DNA of 10,417 nt, from the NCBI GenBank assembly GCA_938073845.1, contig CALJEO010000003.1, positions 1 through 10,417 of the forward strand. The letters run 5' to 3'. Positions 2,881-9,389 of this stretch are shown one piece after another (the stretch's first letter is position 1; each line of letters starts with the position of its first letter). This DNA comes from an uncultured archaeon. Lineage in GTDB: Archaea > Korarchaeota > Korarchaeia > Korarchaeales > Korarchaeaceae. The notes beneath the pieces are model-generated. The model saw only the letters and a list, made by a program, of their open reading frames with translations, ran no database searches and was not told where the DNA came from. Made by a program: the position numbers and the translations under genes.

Positions 2881-3984
2881 ATGCCGTACGATAAATCCCC
2901 ACCCTACCCTCCTGAGGACTTCCTCACCGTGAGGTATGAGGAGCTGCTGGATTTCGTGAGGTCCGTCTTCTTAAAGCTCGGAGTCCCGGAGGAGGACGCG
3001 AGGACCGTAGCAGAGAATCTGGTGACCGCTGACCTGAGGGGAATAGAGTCGCATGGTGTGGCTAGGTTGAGGAGGTACGTCGACGGGATAAGGAAGGGAG
3101 CTGTGAAGGTGAGGCCGAACATAAGGGTGGTGAGCGAGGGCCCCTCCTTCGCTCTAATCGATGGGGACTCCGGCCTGGGACAGGTCGTAGGCAACTTCTC
3201 CATGAGACTAGCCATGAGGAAGGCAGGTGAGAGCGGCCTGGGGTTCGTCACGGTGAGGATGAGCAACCACTATGGCATAGCTGGATACTACGCGATGATG
3301 GCTCTGGAAAAAGACATGATAGGGATCTCCATGACGAACTCGAGGCCCTTAGTGGCCCACACGGGAGCCTTGGGAAAGTGGTTGGGGACAAATCCGATAG
3401 CGTTAGCGGCACCAACGGCAACACCACCTCCCTTCGTCCTTGACATGGCCACGAGCGTGGCCCCCATAGGGAAGATGGAGGAGTACTCGAGGCTGGGGAG
3501 GAAGATCCCGTTGGGCTGGGGAATCGATGCAGAAGGTAAGCCCTGCGACGATCCAGATGTTATAATGAGGGAAGGAGCCCTTCTACCTTTAGGAGGATTA
3601 GGAGAACTCTTCGGAGGTCATAAGGGATATGGTCTAGCAATCATGGTTGAGATACTCACAAGCGTGCTGAGTGGAGCTGCTATGCTCAGGGAGGTGGGCC
3701 AGACGGAGGCCCCTCAACCGGCCAACGTGGGCCACTTCTTCATGGCAATTGACGTCGCTAGGTTCATGCCCGTTGATGAGTTCAAGGGGAGGATGGAGAG
3801 GCTCAGGGAGAGTCTCAAGAAAGCTCCCCTACATCCTGAGTTCGAGAGAATCTGGATTCACGGTGAGAAGAGCTACCTCACCTCCCTGAAGAGGATAGAG
3901 GAGGGGATACCCATCCATAGGAGGGTGATGGAGGGGATGAAGTTGGTAGCCTCGGAGGTGGGCGTCAGGTTCCCCTGGGAATGA
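2881..3984 (+). CDS. Malate/L-lactate/sulfolactate dehydrogenase family (LDH2/MDH2) oxidoreductase
   Basis: This 367-residue NAD(P)-dependent 2-hydroxyacid dehydrogenase belongs to the family distinct from classical Rossmann-fold malate and lactate dehydrogenases. Known members interconvert malate and oxaloacetate, sulfolactate and sulfopyruvate (ComC, coenzyme M synthesis), ureidoglycolate, or lactate and pyruvate. Family landmarks in order are DLRGIESHGVARL (51-63) with conserved His58, GLGQVVG (98-104), the SNHYGIAGYY stretch (128-137) with His130, TNPIALAAPT (170-179), and GGHKGYGLA (245-253) near the end of the cofactor domain. The length is normal and both ends look complete. A TATA box with no leader supports ATG 2881. 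The next gene downstream is convergent. The sequence alone does not decide the substrate; malate or sulfolactate are the usual choices in archaea. Confidence 0.9.
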   Translation: MPYDKSPPYPPEDFLTVRYEELLDFVRSVFLKLGVPEEDARTVAENLVTADLRGIESHGVARLRRYVDGIRKGAVKVRPNIRVVSEGPSFALIDGDSGLGQVVGNFSMRLAMRKAGESGLGFVTVRMSNHYGIAGYYAMMALEKDMIGISMTNSRPLVAHTGALGKWLGTNPIALAAPTATPPPFVLDMATSVAPIGKMEEYSRLGRKIPLGWGIDAEGKPCDDPDVIMREGALLPLGGLGELFGGHKGYGLAIMVEILTSVLSGAAMLREVGQTEAPQPANVGHFFMAIDVARFMPVDEFKGRMERLRESLKKAPLHPEFERIWIHGEKSYLTSLKRIEEGIPIHRRVMEGMKLVASEVGVRFPWE

Positions 3985-4288: not shown

Positions 4289-5797
4289 CTAGGTTCCCCG
4301 GGAGGTCTGGCTAGCTAGGATCCTGTTCAAGGCCTCCTCCAGGGCCCTTACGGAAGCCTCCATGATGTCCCTGCTCGCCCCAGATGCCTGGACCTCTCCT
4401 GAAGGGCCGAGGACCCCTATCATCAGCTCCCCTATTGCCTCGGAACCCGTGGAGACAGCTCTCAGCCTGAACTTCCTCAAGGTCATGCTAGGGACCCCTC
4501 GGATCGATATGAGGGCTTTGGTCAACGCGTCCACGGGACCCACTCCGTGTGAGGAGGAAACCACCTCCCTATCTCCTATCTGAGCCCTCACGGTCGCTGT
4601 AGGGGTTATCCCGCTGCCCGTGACGACCACCCACTCCCTCACCCTGAGGTGCTTCGATTCCACCCCCAGAACCTCCTCCACGACTGACCTGAGCAGGGCT
4701 TCGGTGATCCTCACACCCTCTTCCGATAGATCCTTTATCCTCCTAAGCAAGCTCTCAACCTGTTCCTCGGAGGCTTCATAGCCCATCTCCCTCAGTACCT
4801 CCTGTACGGCAGTCCTTCCGGAGAGGCTGCCTATCCAGAACCTCCTCTTCCTCCCCACCTCCTCAGGGCTTATGGGCTCGTAGCTGGATGGCTCCATCGA
4901 GATGGCCCTCACGTGGACGCCCGCTTCATAGGTGAAAGTGAGGGTCCCGGTCAAGGGGGAGAGCTCATGCACAGGGATGCCGCTCACCCTCTCGACGACC
5001 TCGCTCAAGCTAGCTAGCAGCTCGAGCTTAACGTTCGTATCCAAGCCGGCCAGCTTCCTCAAGGCCACCACCACCTGCTCGAGGGGAGCTATGCCCGCCT
5101 TGGGCCCCAGGCCGTTCACGGAAACGTGTACCTGCTCCGCTCCCGCTAGGGCAGCTGTAACGGAGTTAGCTGTAGCCATGCCGAGGTCGTTGGAGAAGGT
5201 GACGCTCAGAGGGACCCTGAACCTCTCCTTAGCCTCCCTAACCAGCTCGCTAGCTACCTGGGGAAGCAGGACCCCTAAGGGATCACTCAGGTTTATCCTA
5301 TCGGCACCGCCCCTAAGGGCGGTTTCGCAAGCCCTCCAGAGGAATTCCCTATCTGCTCTACCGAAGTCCTCGGCTGTGAACTCCACTATCAGGCCCAAGG
5401 ACTTAGCTAAACTCACTGAGTCCTCTATCCTCCTCAGGGCTTCCTCCTCATCTATACCTAGGGCCCTGAGCAGGGTCCTGCTCACCGGGATGAATATGTT
5501 CACGCTATCAACCTCAGTCTCAGCAGCAGCCTCAACATCCTCTCTGAGGGCTCTAGCCAGGGCGCAGAGCTCTGGTGAGAATCCGGATCTTGAGATCCTC
5601 CTGACGGCCCTAACAACCTCTTTAGTTATCCTCTTCTCGCCCTCAGAATAGGAGGGGAACCCTGCCTCTATCACATCAACGCCCACCGTGTCCAGGTGGC
5701 TCGCCACCTCAACCCTGCCCTCTAGACCGAAGGAGACGCCCGGGACCATCTCGCCAAGCGTGAGCGTGGAGTCGAAGATCCTCACCTTCCTGGGCAT
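4289..5797 (-). CDS. LeuA-family protein (isopropylmalate/homocitrate/citramalate synthase-like) lacking its catalytic residues
   Basis: This 502-residue protein has the LeuA layout: a TIM barrel (about 1-270), a linker with GVHVRAISMEPSSYEPI (293-309) and SLSGRTAVQ (324-332), then the leucine-type allosteric domain with SHGVGPVDAL (416-425). Active members join acetyl-CoA to a 2-oxo acid in leucine, isoleucine or lysine-type pathways, using a divalent metal. Here the usual TLRDGEQ motif reads TLTLGEM (11-17), so the catalytic Arg and metal-binding Asp are Thr13 and Leu14. The usual HCHND reads TFSND (200-204), so both metal-binding His are gone. The usual GERAGN reads GPKAGI (231-236). His295 of the linker motif remains. 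The gene is otherwise intact. It starts 29 bases after herA with its own TATA-like box. It is probably a pseudoenzyme or regulator of an active LeuA encoded elsewhere, or it has new chemistry. Confidence 0.85.
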   Translation of the reverse strand: MPRKVRIFDSTLTLGEMVPGVSFGLEGRVEVASHLDTVGVDVIEAGFPSYSEGEKRITKEVVRAVRRISRSGFSPELCALARALREDVEAAAETEVDSVNIFIPVSRTLLRALGIDEEEALRRIEDSVSLAKSLGLIVEFTAEDFGRADREFLWRACETALRGGADRINLSDPLGVLLPQVASELVREAKERFRVPLSVTFSNDLGMATANSVTAALAGAEQVHVSVNGLGPKAGIAPLEQVVVALRKLAGLDTNVKLELLASLSEVVERVSGIPVHELSPLTGTLTFTYEAGVHVRAISMEPSSYEPISPEEVGRKRRFWIGSLSGRTAVQEVLREMGYEASEEQVESLLRRIKDLSEEGVRITEALLRSVVEEVLGVESKHLRVREWVVVTGSGITPTATVRAQIGDREVVSSSHGVGPVDALTKALISIRGVPSMTLRKFRLRAVSTGSEAIGELMIGVLGPSGEVQASGASRDIMEASVRALEEALNRILASQTSRGT

Positions 5798-5819: not shown

Positions 5820-5827
5820 TTAAAAAT
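5820..5827 (-). promoter_or_regulatory. TATA-like box before the LeuA-family gene
   Basis: On the minus strand ATTTTTAA lies centred about 26 bases before the ATG at 5797 and just abuts the stop codon of herA. This spacing suits a leaderless transcript. GAGGGGG further down, at 5812-5818, is too far from the ATG to be a normal ribosome binding site. The gene may also be read through from nurA-herA. Confidence 0.45.
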
Positions 5828-8337
5828 CACATCCTCTCCCAAGCCCTCTCCGGAGGGGTGATCGACTTGGACGGGAGGGACACCACCTCCATCTCAACAT
5901 GAACGGGGAAAGGGACGCTGCTTCCCATCCCCCAGACGAGGGCCTCGTGATCGGATAGCATCGGGAGGTAGGACTCGATTCCCTCAACCTCCGTGTACTT
6001 AGCTATGGCCTCCTGATCGTTCCCGTTCCTAAGCCTGAAGGCCACTACGGTGTTCGCTTGGCTTATCACGCTCTTACTGACGTAAGCGGGCCTCTGCGTC
6101 ACCACTATGAACCCCAGGTTGTAACCTCCGGCCTGACTTATCGCCTCTATCAGCGATTGAGCTGCCCCCACCTCATAAGGATCACCCACTATGGAGAAGC
6201 CCCTCTCAGGGATGAGGTACTGGGCCTCCTCTATCACCACTATGAGGGCGAAATCCCCATCCCTCCTCCTAGATATCGCATAGCTTGCCAGCTCCTCCAC
6301 GATGCTCCTGACGGTGAGGAACTGCTCCTCATACCTCCTATCCGATGAGAAGTCCACTATCACTAACGGGCTCCTCCTGACCTCCTCAACTACGCTAAGC
6401 CCATCGCCCGAGCTAAGCCTACGCGCCTCCCTCCTCATCCTGGACTCTACCTCAGCCGCTATGGAGGACCTCACCCTCATCTCCCTAGCCACTCTCCTCA
6501 AGGACCTCAGGGCCTGCTCAGCCTCGCCATCAGCCTCCCTCAGGGCGGAGACCAGGAGCTGGTAGGACAGGGTCCCCGGCCTGTAACCGAGCCTCCTGGC
6601 TATGGATTGGGGACTCATTGAACCGATCCCTGGGAGGAAGGAGGAGTAATCGTGAACAGTGCCTCCCTTAGCGGCCAGCCTCTCGTACTCCCCCCTCCTA
6701 TCGAGCACCAGGAACCTGGGCCTCGGCCTGAGCTCAGATGACTTAGCTATCAAGCTCGCCACGAAGCTGCTGTTGTGGACGAAGGCGCCGTTGGCCAGGA
6801 AGCTCTGATTTTCTGGGACATCGAGATCGTAGACGTACTTCGCGTTCATGTAGACCTTCCTCACGCTCACTATCCTCTCCAGGTTCACTGAGGCCCTGTA
6901 GATCAAGCCCTCCCTCTTGGGAAGGACCCTCAGCTGAAGCATGCCTCCGTCCATCCCTAAGCTCATCCCTCCCCAGTCCTCGATGCGGTCCATGAGGATC
7001 CTCAGGGATAGGGGGTCCACCAGGAACCCCCTTGGGCAGAAGCGTAACGTGGTGACGCCGAGCAGGGAGAGGATCGTTGAGAGGGCCATGGCCCTGCCCT
7101 CCCCGCAGAGGATCAGGGAGCTCCCCTTGGCGTCGTGGATCGCGCACCTCACCAGGAGCTCCCTGAGCGCCCTGGCCAGGGGGTGGTACCTCCTTCCTAG
7201 CTCCTCAGCCTCAGAGGGAAGGCTCAGCAGGGAGGAGAGCCCTTGGGAGACCATCTTAGAGAGCTCAGGGGATTTAACGAAGACGCCGCTCCTATCGAGG
7301 ACCTTGTGGTCCACGCCCGCCTCTAGGCAAGCTAGCTTGACGTCAGCTATATCGGGGTCCATGATGAGCACTCCGTCCCTCATCGCGGCTCCTGAGGCTA
7401 GAGCTATGCCCAGGAGCCTATCGAAGTAGTGGGCCCCTGAGCCCGGTCTCAGCGTAACTCCTCTAGGCACTACCAAGTACCTGTCCCTCATCCCAGCGAG
7501 CCTCTTGGGAGTCGATACGGACAAGCTGCTTCCGTCAGTTACCAGCAAACTGTGGTCCTCCGTTACCCTCAGCTTCCTCCCGGTGGAGGTCTCTACCTCG
7601 TAAACCTCCTTATCTAGTGTATGCCTGTACACGCCAGCTACCTCGCACCACCTTGGCGAGAGGTCGCTCCCCAGGGAGAGGGTCTCGTAGCCAAGTCCCC
7701 TGAGGTCTAGGAGGACATCGTCCTTGACTCCCTTAGGTACCTTGCTCTCGAAGAACTTCTCCACTGGGCCTATGAAGTATTCCCTCCTCCTAGAGTCATA
7801 GATCACAATCACACTATCCCCGGTGATGCTCTTCCCGCTCCTGGTCATCCCGGTGACGAACATGTGTCCCTTGGCGATTGCAGCGAGGTCCAGGGAGAAG
7901 GGTACCCTGGTCCCCTTCACCCTCCCCACGGTCAGCGGGAGTCCCTGGGAGAAGGGTGGGGTGAGGAAGCCTGTAAGCTCCCTGGGCTCGGGCCTCATCA
8001 CCCTGGATAGGGTGGAAGGAGGGGATTCCAGAGCCCTTATCCTCCCTGAGCCCGGATCCCTATACCCCAAGACCTCGCATTCAGCTATCAGGTACTCCAG
8101 CTCGCTGCTGTAATCGGAGATCATCCCGGAGCTACTGGCTAAGAGACCAGCTTTCCCCAGCTCCACCTCCTCGTTTATCGTCTGGATCTCCCTCACCCTC
8201 AGGAAGACGGGCACACCCTCCCAGGGGTGGTCGATCACGTAGAAATCTCCCAGATGTAGCTTCACTCCCTTGAGAGCAACGAAGATCACTTTCCTAGGAG
8301 TGGATCGGGAGATCACGTGACCGACGACTTCCCTCAA
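5827..8337 (-). CDS. herA: HerA hexameric DNA helicase/translocase, interrupted by an intein
   Basis: HerA is a bipolar DNA translocase that works with NurA, and with Mre11-Rad50, to resect double-strand breaks. The 836-residue precursor contains an N-terminal HAS-barrel (about 1-60, GHVIS near the start) and the start of the RecA-like ATPase domain, with VTGMTRSGK at 161-169. Intein residues 170-522 follow, then the rest of the ATPase domain. Removing the intein gives a 483-residue HerA, close to the usual 500, and restores the Walker A sequence GMTRSGKS. Walker B is LIVVIEEAQ (698-706), and VVTQRP (745-750) is also typical. The start is TTG at 8337: GGGGTGA sits six bases upstream, and the TTG overlaps the nurA stop by four bases as TTGA, a sign of translational coupling. 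An ATG two bases upstream is in another frame. The functional protein depends wholly on splicing. Confidence 0.93.
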   Translation of the reverse strand: MREVVGHVISRSTPRKVIFVALKGVKLHLGDFYVIDHPWEGVPVFLRVREIQTINEEVELGKAGLLASSSGMISDYSSELEYLIAECEVLGYRDPGSGRIRALESPPSTLSRVMRPEPRELTGFLTPPFSQGLPLTVGRVKGTRVPFSLDLAAIAKGHMFVTGMTRSGKSITGDSVIVIYDSRRREYFIGPVEKFFESKVPKGVKDDVLLDLRGLGYETLSLGSDLSPRWCEVAGVYRHTLDKEVYEVETSTGRKLRVTEDHSLLVTDGSSLSVSTPKRLAGMRDRYLVVPRGVTLRPGSGAHYFDRLLGIALASGAAMRDGVLIMDPDIADVKLACLEAGVDHKVLDRSGVFVKSPELSKMVSQGLSSLLSLPSEAEELGRRYHPLARALRELLVRCAIHDAKGSSLILCGEGRAMALSTILSLLGVTTLRFCPRGFLVDPLSLRILMDRIEDWGGMSLGMDGGMLQLRVLPKREGLIYRASVNLERIVSVRKVYMNAKYVYDLDVPENQSFLANGAFVHNSSFVASLIAKSSELRPRPRFLVLDRRGEYERLAAKGGTVHDYSSFLPGIGSMSPQSIARRLGYRPGTLSYQLLVSALREADGEAEQALRSLRRVAREMRVRSSIAAEVESRMRREARRLSSGDGLSVVEEVRRSPLVIVDFSSDRRYEEQFLTVRSIVEELASYAISRRRDGDFALIVVIEEAQYLIPERGFSIVGDPYEVGAAQSLIEAISQAGGYNLGFIVVTQRPAYVSKSVISQANTVVAFRLRNGNDQEAIAKYTEVEGIESYLPMLSDHEALVWGMGSSVPFPVHVEMEVVSLPSKSITPPERAWERM
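6772..7830 (-). mobile_element. Intein inside the HerA Walker A P-loop
   Basis: Residues 170-522 of the precursor (353 aa) form an intein. It begins with Ser170 in the block A motif SITGDSVIVI. Block B is visible as GRKLRVTEDHSLLV, with Thr259 and His262 (the TxxH motif). Block F is YVYDLDVPENQSF (501-513), and block G is AFVHN with His521 and the terminal Asn522. The first residue after it is Ser523, so all splicing residues are present in Ser/Ser form. The insertion lies between Lys and Ser of the P-loop, so the precursor cannot form its nucleotide-binding site. Base composition and arginine codon use resemble the host gene, which suggests long residence. Both inteins and their homing nucleases favour such invariant ATPase sites. 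Confidence 0.93.
6973..7440 (-). other. Degenerate LAGLIDADG homing endonuclease domain of the intein
   Basis: Roughly residues 300-455 of the precursor have the layout of a two-motif LAGLIDADG (DOD) endonuclease. The first motif reads LLGIALASG (308-316) and the second RCAIHDAKG (397-405). In active enzymes the eighth position of each motif is an acidic, metal-binding residue; here it is Ser315 and Lys404. Flanking helix-strand patterns (a run ending LACLEAG after the first motif, ALSTILSLLG after the second) still look like the family. The domain is therefore probably unable to cut DNA, and the intein is fixed by vertical descent. Boundaries are approximate. Confidence 0.65.
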
Positions 8338-9389
8338 TCATTTTCACCCCTCTGGAGGGAAAGGAGGGCAAACCTCTCGCGGCTCACTCCCCTTGCCTCG
8401 CTCAGGATCATCCTGTAGACGAGGGATGCCTGCTTATCCGTGAGCTTCGACAGCCTATCCACAGCTATTATCGGCAGCGGGAGCCCGGTGCTTGGCTCCG
8501 AGAGGGAATATATCTGGGAGGCTAGGGCGTGGGCTAAGTTTAGGGAGAACTCCGGGAGATCTACCCTGACGGCGAACCTCCCCCTCCTCAGGAACATGAC
8601 CCAGGGTCTGAAGCTGTTGGCATCACCCAGGAAGGGGGCCACCTCCTCCCAGCCCCCGCTGGCCGGCAGAGGTCCGAGTGCCTCACCCTCCCTCAGCAGG
8701 AGTGAGGAGAGGAGGGAGTCGGGAACGCTCTCAATGCCCAGCCAGCCGGAGATGTAGTGACTCCTCACCCTCTTGACAATTCCCATCACATGCTTTCCAG
8801 AGAGCTTAGCATCCTTCAGCAGGTTTGAGAGGGAGCGTAGAGCAGCTTCATACACCTCCAAGTAGCTCTGGGAATAGCTTCTCCCCCTCGGGGCATAGTA
8901 GCTCCTTGGCAGGTAGAGAGGCCCGTCTATCAGCACTAGCTCGCTCCTACTGAGGAGGATCGCGGCGAGGTTGTACATGAGGTAGTAGCCCATGAGGGAG
9001 GATATCTTCACGCCCTCCTCATCATCCAAGCTCGAGGAGGGGGGCCTCAGCGTGGCGAGGAGTGGCTCGGACATCCTCAGGCCGTCCAGGAAGACTGCCC
9101 CCACGGCCAGGCTCATGGGCTGGTAACCTATCAGCAGGTCCTTGCCGCCCGAACCCGAGTCAACGGCGGCTACCCTTGAGCTAGTCGCCTCAGGATGCAG
9201 CCTCACTATGGGGAGCAGACTTCTGAGCTTAGGAGCGATCGATTCAGCCCTATCCACGATCTCCATTATGTTGGAGAGGAGCTCCTTTGATATTTCACTC
9301 AATACCTCGTTGTACTCGCTGTAAGGCCTCACCCTGGGGGCGAGCTTGGATAGGCCCAACTCACCGTGCTCCTCATCCCTTTTTTTCAT
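8334..9389 (-). CDS. nurA: NurA 5'-3' nuclease
   Basis: NurA is the manganese-dependent nuclease that docks on HerA and degrades the 5' strand at DNA ends, giving 3' overhangs for RadA-mediated recombination. The 351-residue length is normal. Visible motifs are RVAAVDSGSGG (72-82) with the metal-binding Asp77, LVLIDGPLYLP (151-161) with Asp155, GIVKRV (203-208), and a late IIAVDRLSK (307-315). They follow the order of the NurA domain, an RNase H-like fold. ATG at 9389 is supported by GAGG six bases upstream (9396-9399). It overlaps herA by four bases, the classic archaeal nurA-herA arrangement, and is divergent from the regulator gene at 9569. No Mre11 or Rad50 gene is in the window. Confidence 0.93.
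   Translation of the reverse strand: MKKRDEEHGELGLSKLAPRVRPYSEYNEVLSEISKELLSNIMEIVDRAESIAPKLRSLLPIVRLHPEATSSRVAAVDSGSGGKDLLIGYQPMSLAVGAVFLDGLRMSEPLLATLRPPSSSLDDEEGVKISSLMGYYLMYNLAAILLSRSELVLIDGPLYLPRSYYAPRGRSYSQSYLEVYEAALRSLSNLLKDAKLSGKHVMGIVKRVRSHYISGWLGIESVPDSLLSSLLLREGEALGPLPASGGWEEVAPFLGDANSFRPWVMFLRRGRFAVRVDLPEFSLNLAHALASQIYSLSEPSTGLPLPIIAVDRLSKLTDKQASLVYRMILSEARGVSRERFALLSLQRGEND
8344..8350 (-). promoter_or_regulatory. Shine-Dalgarno site that sets the herA TTG start
   Basis: On the minus strand GGGGTGA lies six bases before the TTG at 8337, inside the end of nurA. It decides the start in favour of TTG over the nearby out-of-frame ATG. Confidence 0.65.

Follow-up and report, generated by a model that had tools for sequence, protein, structure and literature searches.

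A putative LeuA-family pseudoenzyme conserved across an archaeal genus

The window analysed here, a stretch of 10,417 nucleotides, encodes a LeuA-family protein, P0001 (4289..5797, minus strand), which begins with ATG and runs for 502 amino acids with no internal stop. Judged by its residues and its distribution, it appears to be a LeuA-family pseudoenzyme that is real and conserved across the genus of the window. The reading we favour, to which we give about an even chance, is that of a dimeric, amino-acid-responsive regulatory pseudo-synthase, a LeuA duplicate that would already have been without its site for metal and 2-oxo acid when the genus radiated.

Three Pfam domains were identified in P0001, all in the order of the LeuA family and each above its cut-off. 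The HMGL-like (beta/alpha)8 barrel (PF00682, residues 4-268, 4994..5788, minus strand, 202-204 bits) was followed by the HCS_D2 linker (PF22617, residues 283-360, 4718..4951, minus strand), with His295 (4913-4915, minus strand) and Tyr306 (4880-4882, minus strand), and by the C-terminal LeuA_dimer allosteric domain (PF08502, residues 364-494, 4316..4708, minus strand, 93 bits) with its GVGPVD motif. GVGPVDA was found in 15/15 pseudo-synthase copies, and G418, V419, G420 and D423 stood in 39/39 alignment rows. The open frame of 502 codons, the linker His and the well-kept C-terminal domain that the first-pass annotation had read from this DNA were all confirmed. A structure model of P0001 from a 39-row alignment (pLDDT 89) superseded an earlier one from 15 rows (pLDDT 71), and its top Foldseek matches were homocitrate synthase 6ktq, MAMS 6e1j and M. 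tuberculosis LeuA. LeuA-type matches were absent when the regulatory domain alone was compared by sequence with PDB structures, so the identity of any amino acid bound by P0001 would be a guess; the profile of the 39-row alignment A3, which includes normal LeuA, reached the regulatory-domain structure 3f6g. The pseudo-synthase was 42-44% identical to the LeuA of its own genus.

Residue roles were transferred from MAMS (PMC11532901) through an alignment of P0001 to 6E1J, and residues were counted in 15 full pseudo-synthase copies and 24 normal relatives (11 of the same genus and 13 from other archaea). All 24 relatives carried TLRDGEQ, H-C-H-(N/D)-D and GERAGN, and the three replacements noticed at first reading were borne out: TLTLGEM for TLRDGEQ (residues 11-17, 5747..5767), TFSND for HCHND (residues 200-204, 5186..5200) and GPKAGI for GERAGN (residues 231-236, 5090..5107), all on the minus strand. 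The oxo-acid Arg, the metal Asp and the acetyl-CoA Gln were gone from the first motif (R89, D90 and Q93 of MAMS, T13, L14 and M17 in P0001) and both metal His from the second (H288 to T200, H290 to S202), while the oxo-acid Thr T257 was changed to P173. The Asn of GERAGN, which we take to have a metal role, was Ile in P0001. Each of these residues was present in 24/24 normal relatives, whereas among the pseudo-synthase copies the Arg (position 13), the metal Asp (position 14), His 200 and N236 were retained in 0/15, the Gln (position 17) in 1/15, the Thr (position 173) in 2/15 and His 202 in 3/15. Orthologues with normal motifs, which would have pointed to decay of this single sequence, were thus not found among the full copies.

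It had also been claimed that every metal-binding and key catalytic residue was lost. This holds for the metal and oxo-acid sites and fails for the Glu-Tyr-His triad, which is described for MAMS in PMC11532901: E143 (5369..5371, minus strand; E227 in MAMS numbering), H295 (H388) and Y306 (Y399) were kept in 15/15 copies, as were D9, E16, D144, R147, D172, N203 and D204. Among the 24 normal relatives Glu stood at position 143 in 20 and Met in the other four, and Phe was found at position 306 in four.

The former ligands were mostly replaced by small or hydrophobic residues. Positions 13, 14, 17, 173, 200, 202 and 236 held 2-4 residue types each among the copies, so a substitute metal site was not evident at these seven first-shell positions; F201, P232, K233, L286 and Y290, in contrast, were new residues fixed across the 15 copies. 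There were 99 positions invariant in the 24 normal relatives, of which 63, H295 included, were unchanged in 15/15 copies, and all seven first-shell positions fell within the 21 retained in at most 3/15 copies (hypergeometric 8e-6, a descriptive value only because the sequences are related). The losses appear to be concentrated on the active site and not to be a matter of chance. In the alignment, homocitrate synthase 6ktq likewise carries Ile in place of the Asn of GERAGN and Glu in place of the Asp, and it retains the Arg and both His. The Asn change by itself is therefore not diagnostic, and most weight falls on the losses of Arg and His, since the metal role of the Asn is presumed and 6ktq departs at both the Asn and the Asp position. 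As the first-pass annotation had argued, the standard metal-dependent condensation would not be expected of a protein with this clade-wide loss.

An ordinary LeuA or citramalate synthase whose metal is held by other residues is a very improbable explanation. It would suit the overall fold, the 467 bits that P0001 scored against a LeuA subfamily model and the departures of 6ktq at the Asn and Asp positions, and the copy of genome G002 (L016 1501-3000) even exceeded the cut-off of that model, a curated 2-isopropylmalate synthase entry of NCBIfam, with 530 vs 517 bits. Against it, the Arg and the first metal His were gone in 15/15 copies, mostly in favour of small or hydrophobic residues, and P0001 was under the cut-off in each of the best 25 of 26 NCBIfam models (467 vs 517 bits in the top-scoring one), while 3/3 normal LeuA checked as a control exceeded the cut-offs of three models.

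Full copies were present in 14/16 genomes of the genus, giving 15 copies with the two of G014; G004 had a partial copy, and none was found in G013 (70% complete). In the other 13 genomes of the phylum (29 examined) the pseudo-synthase was absent, and the matches read there had normal motifs. The DNA pattern NGxGPK(A/S)G, with which alone the genomes past the first 61 of the 394 were checked, matched 14/394 genomes, all of the same genus and at the 15 full copies, and was absent in the remaining 380; the reversed control pattern gave 0 matches in the 394 genomes. A single-sequence scan of genome contigs gave 46 stretches with 0 relatives, and a profile scan gave 10 loci in records titled Crenarchaeota or Thermoproteota archaeon. 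A viral origin was tried and rejected, as 44 candidate stretches in viral contigs contained 0 relatives. The two copies of G014 (L071 and L072) belonged to separate subclades, and a nurA-herA pair accompanied each of them; because the subclades differ, and because it is 7% contaminated, G014 may be a mixed bin of two species.

In a tree of 45 proteins, limited to homologues of more than 400 aa whose locus had been retrieved, the pseudo-synthases formed one clade (100/100) on a long stem (1.08) and the LeuA proteins of the genus another (100/98). Both clades were jointly separated from 18 other archaeal rows (100/100), a grouping whose reading is limited by root and sampling. Thirteen of these 18 outgroup rows were also in alignment A3, and a further outgroup row (L032 2-1510) was taken out before the tree. 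Alignments A1-A3 did not include G004:C203, the partial pseudo-synthase copy, or the truncated LeuA copies G000:C49, G006:C101 and G006:C147, and the LeuA G004:C136, cut at its end, was used in the tree only. G002 branched first in the pseudo-synthase tree and also in the RpoB tree (support 91/100 for the genus and 92/98 for the rest), and the main groups matched between the two; the trees differed in branching order inside G000-G010-G011 and inside the G001 group, and the RpoB placement of G004 is meaningless because that sequence is fragmentary and its branch very long. The simplest reading of these trees would be a single LeuA duplication before the genus radiated, followed by mainly vertical descent.

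Decay or a sequencing error in one genome found nothing in its favour beyond the 64% completeness of the window's assembly. It was ruled out by the 15 full orthologous copies with the same loss, with a mostly vertical tree and dN/dS well below 1, and we leave it practically no probability. The pseudo-synthase gave dN/dS of 0.035-0.121 in 11 pairs (Nei-Gojobori) and LeuA 0.035-0.083 in nine of the same pairs, single ratios being rough since some dS values exceeded 1. In keeping with the earlier view that the gene was kept, the pseudo-synthase, barrel included, is under strong purifying selection. Domain divergence, taken as the mean amino-acid difference in the 11 genomes holding both proteins, was 0.276 in the barrel of the pseudo-synthase vs 0.148 in that of LeuA (1.9 times), 0.278 vs 0.172 in the linker and 0.259 vs 0.237, about equal, in the regulatory domain. 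These differences indicate a loosening of barrel and linker in the pseudo-synthase that the regulatory domain does not share. The ratio of regulatory domain to barrel was 0.94 for the pseudo-synthase vs 1.60 for LeuA, with the same direction in 53/55 non-independent pairs, and stayed at 0.90-0.96 vs 1.53-1.67 when one genome at a time was left out.

Because the Glu-Tyr-His triad was retained, new chemistry has to be weighed, though we hold it unlikely. The acetyl-CoA-enolising triad could be used metal-free, for example for thioester hydrolysis or for condensation with a non-chelating acceptor. In its favour, E143, H295 and Y306 were kept in 15/15 copies (though Met at 143 and Phe at 306 each occur in four of the 24 normal relatives), new residues were fixed (F201, P232, K233, L286 and Y290), and the barrel is under strong selection. 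But Q17, near the acetyl-CoA, was kept in one copy only, the seven former first-shell positions were variable and the barrel diverged faster than that of LeuA; in addition, the Arg is essential in MAMS and also reported so in other DRE-TIM subgroups (PMC11532901).

The separate catalytic LeuA that the first-pass annotation had suggested looking for was found in the window genome (G000:C49, normal and truncated by the contig end), and a LeuA match, full or cut, was present in 14/15 genomes holding the pseudo-synthase. The two genes lay on different contigs or far apart, for example at 597 kb vs 191 kb in G009 and at 504 kb vs 91 kb in G011. In G009 the normal gene was the first of a LeuA-LeuC-LeuD-LeuB set, and likewise in the window genome, where LeuA is cut; LeuA, LeuC and LeuB were seen in the ORF list of G011. 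LeuB-type genes were assigned by PF00180, while LeuC and LeuD were read by eye from the sequence. The exception was G002 (99% complete), in which the pseudo-synthase and a second synthase-like gene were present and a LeuA match was not found. The Iso_dh genes of G002 numbered just two, of which one belonged to the cluster of the second synthase and the other, of the long type, lay elsewhere; no leu-operon Iso_dh was found. KARI and IlvD matches were not found in G002 either, and this weighs less because G010 (96% complete), which has LeuA, also gave no match to either. The G002 copy broke 0/63 positions common to the other 14 copies and the 24 normal relatives, and among sites that do not vary between the other 14 copies its changes came to 5.9% in the regulatory domain (51 sites), 11.4% in the barrel (105 sites) and 17.6% in the linker (34 sites). 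The pseudo-synthase would seem to work without LeuA in G002, unless an assembly gap hides LeuA; if the loss of LeuA were recent, the argument from G002 would weaken.

The IPMS enzyme is a domain-swapped dimer in which the linker His and Tyr act in trans on the partner active site. The pseudo-synthase might by analogy be a dedicated LeuA subunit, supplying the LeuA site in trans with the His and Tyr of its linker and adding a feedback domain. The LeuA of the genus was its nearest relative in the tree and matched in all but one of its genomes, and H295 and Y306 were kept in 15/15 copies although the protein's own metal-site residues are gone; precedents of dead paralogues are given for trypanosome AdoMetDC and deoxyhypusine synthase (PMC5201418 and PMC3663545). 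We still think this doubtful. The pseudo-synthase was not always accompanied by an active parent (14/15 genomes), the G002 copy was unrelaxed with neither a LeuA match nor a leu-operon Iso_dh in that genome, and the two genes stood on separate contigs or far apart. The retention in G002 thus argues against a role solely as LeuA subunit.

Another partner could be the second synthase-like protein (L002 1120-2478 on C47 in the window genome, motif TLRDGQQ), whose gene adjoined aconitase-like and Iso_dh genes and which may be a Re-citrate or homocitrate synthase. It was matched in 15/15 pseudo-synthase genomes and also in G022, which had no pseudo-synthase. In the window genome this protein has no LeuA_dimer domain, which makes it a possible partner of the pseudo-synthase.

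In the window, the pseudo-synthase was preceded by a herA-type ATPase gene (5827..8337, minus strand; PF01935 and PF14890), ending 29 bases before its ATG, and by a nurA nuclease gene (8334..9389, minus strand; PF09376), whose end overlapped the herA start. The next upstream gene on the same strand was herA in 14/15 copies; the two genes were 21-46 bases apart in 12/14 and 558 in G011, the distance in G015 being not resolved, and nurA preceded herA in all 11 loci whose contig extends far enough. Since other neighbours were conserved too, a functional link between HerA-NurA and the pseudo-synthase is not claimed. A convergent downstream Ldh_2 gene of the malate/L-lactate dehydrogenase family (2881-3984 in the window) was near 11/15 copies, with one intervening gene in three of the 11. 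By cluster size, with one member identified in each case, an Lrp/AsnC family member occurred in seven neighbourhoods and an amino-acid permease family member in six. The G002 copy adjoined an aldehyde ferredoxin oxidoreductase gene, with a glutamate-dehydrogenase-type gene about 8 kb off.

The herA gene contained an intein inside the Walker A P-loop. The end of the same insertion was visible in 14/14 herA genes beside the pseudo-synthase, window included, and both ends in 12 (350-365 residues), so that the intein looks fixed in the genus. The window also encoded an LRV (leucine-rich-variant) repeat protein (547-1992), with relatives near the G011 and G010 copies, and a dual-specificity-type phosphatase (PTP-SAK, 2086-2850), in which the long N-terminal stretch before the domain may reflect a wrong start.

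For the regulatory pseudo-synthase that we prefer, the following course could be drawn. A LeuA duplicate would have lost the metal and 2-oxo-acid site before the radiation of the genus and been kept as a dimeric regulatory protein, still forming the domain-swapped LeuA dimer. Its C-terminal domain would bind an amino acid of the branched-chain type, and by way of the retained linker (H295 and Y306, together with E143) the signal might reach a partner other than LeuA, or one in addition to it. The retained triad, linker and GVGPVD would be the pieces expected if the dimer and the signal path had stayed without the condensation. Leucine in the C-terminal domain of IPMS controls the active site, and the change Y410F in the M. 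tuberculosis enzyme is reported to abolish leucine sensitivity (PMC10464499). Several points stand against the regulatory reading. The regulatory domain of P0001 taken alone gave no LeuA-type structure match by sequence; the neighbours nurA and herA give no hint of amino-acid control; E143, H295 and Y306 together with the fixed F201, P232, K233 and Y290 could mean a new active site; and in the G010-G011 pair the pseudo-synthase dN/dS was twice that of LeuA (0.121 vs 0.060). A mixed course, to our mind unlikely, would combine metal-free reuse of the triad with gating by an amino acid bound at the C-terminus, giving an acyl-CoA enzyme or an acetyl-CoA/amino-acid co-sensor that is kept even without LeuA. 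Of the three roles first proposed, that of an amino-acid sensor or regulator suits the data best, G002 weakens the case for a subunit serving LeuA alone, and new chemistry keeps the small share given to it above. The intact retention across the genus, once where LeuA was not found, suggests a control or sensing job in place of the usual chemistry.

The LeuA/homocitrate synthase family is one of the main points at which entry into amino-acid synthesis is under feedback control. There are known cases of pseudoenzymes regulating an active paralogue, and a narrow open-access literature search found none described in this family, in agreement with the first-pass annotation, which knew of no such family. 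By the definition used in PMC10211241, a pseudoenzyme lacks conserved catalytic motifs by sequence; such motifs were missing here and purifying selection was found, and the terms isopropylmalate and homocitrate were absent from that review. Since the G002 copy exceeded the curated 2-isopropylmalate synthase model, routine annotation may misname it and credit a leucine-pathway enzyme to a genome in which LeuA was not found.

Compared with 2-isopropylmalate synthase (LeuA/IPMS), a DRE-TIM metallolyase of the Claisen-condensation subgroup, the pseudo-synthase agrees in fold and in the order of its domains, in the His and Tyr of the linker, in the Glu of the barrel and in a LeuA_dimer domain with GVGPVD, and differs in that P0001 is without the metal Asp and His, the oxo-acid Arg and Thr and the acetyl-CoA Gln. 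The Sulfolobus acidocaldarius homocitrate synthase 6ktq, whose entry title names a RAM domain, was the best fold match and the best single-sequence PDB match of P0001; the two share Ile at the Asn of GERAGN, and 6ktq differs in retaining the Arg and both His and in having Glu where the Asp would stand. The AdoMetDC prozyme, the deoxyhypusine synthase paralogue and PDX1.2 are likewise catalytically dead paralogues of biosynthetic enzymes, and none of them is known to belong to the LeuA family. For the first two an active partner is shown, whereas in G002 the parent enzyme of the pseudo-synthase was not found. MAMS (6E1J) resembles the pseudo-synthase as a LeuA duplicate with a new role and a Glu-Tyr-His triad (PMC11532901). 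MAMS is still active, with its metal site in place, and has dispensed with the regulatory domain; the pseudo-synthase appears to have gone the reverse way, with catalysis lost and the regulatory domain kept, and would offer a natural test of the allosteric half alone.
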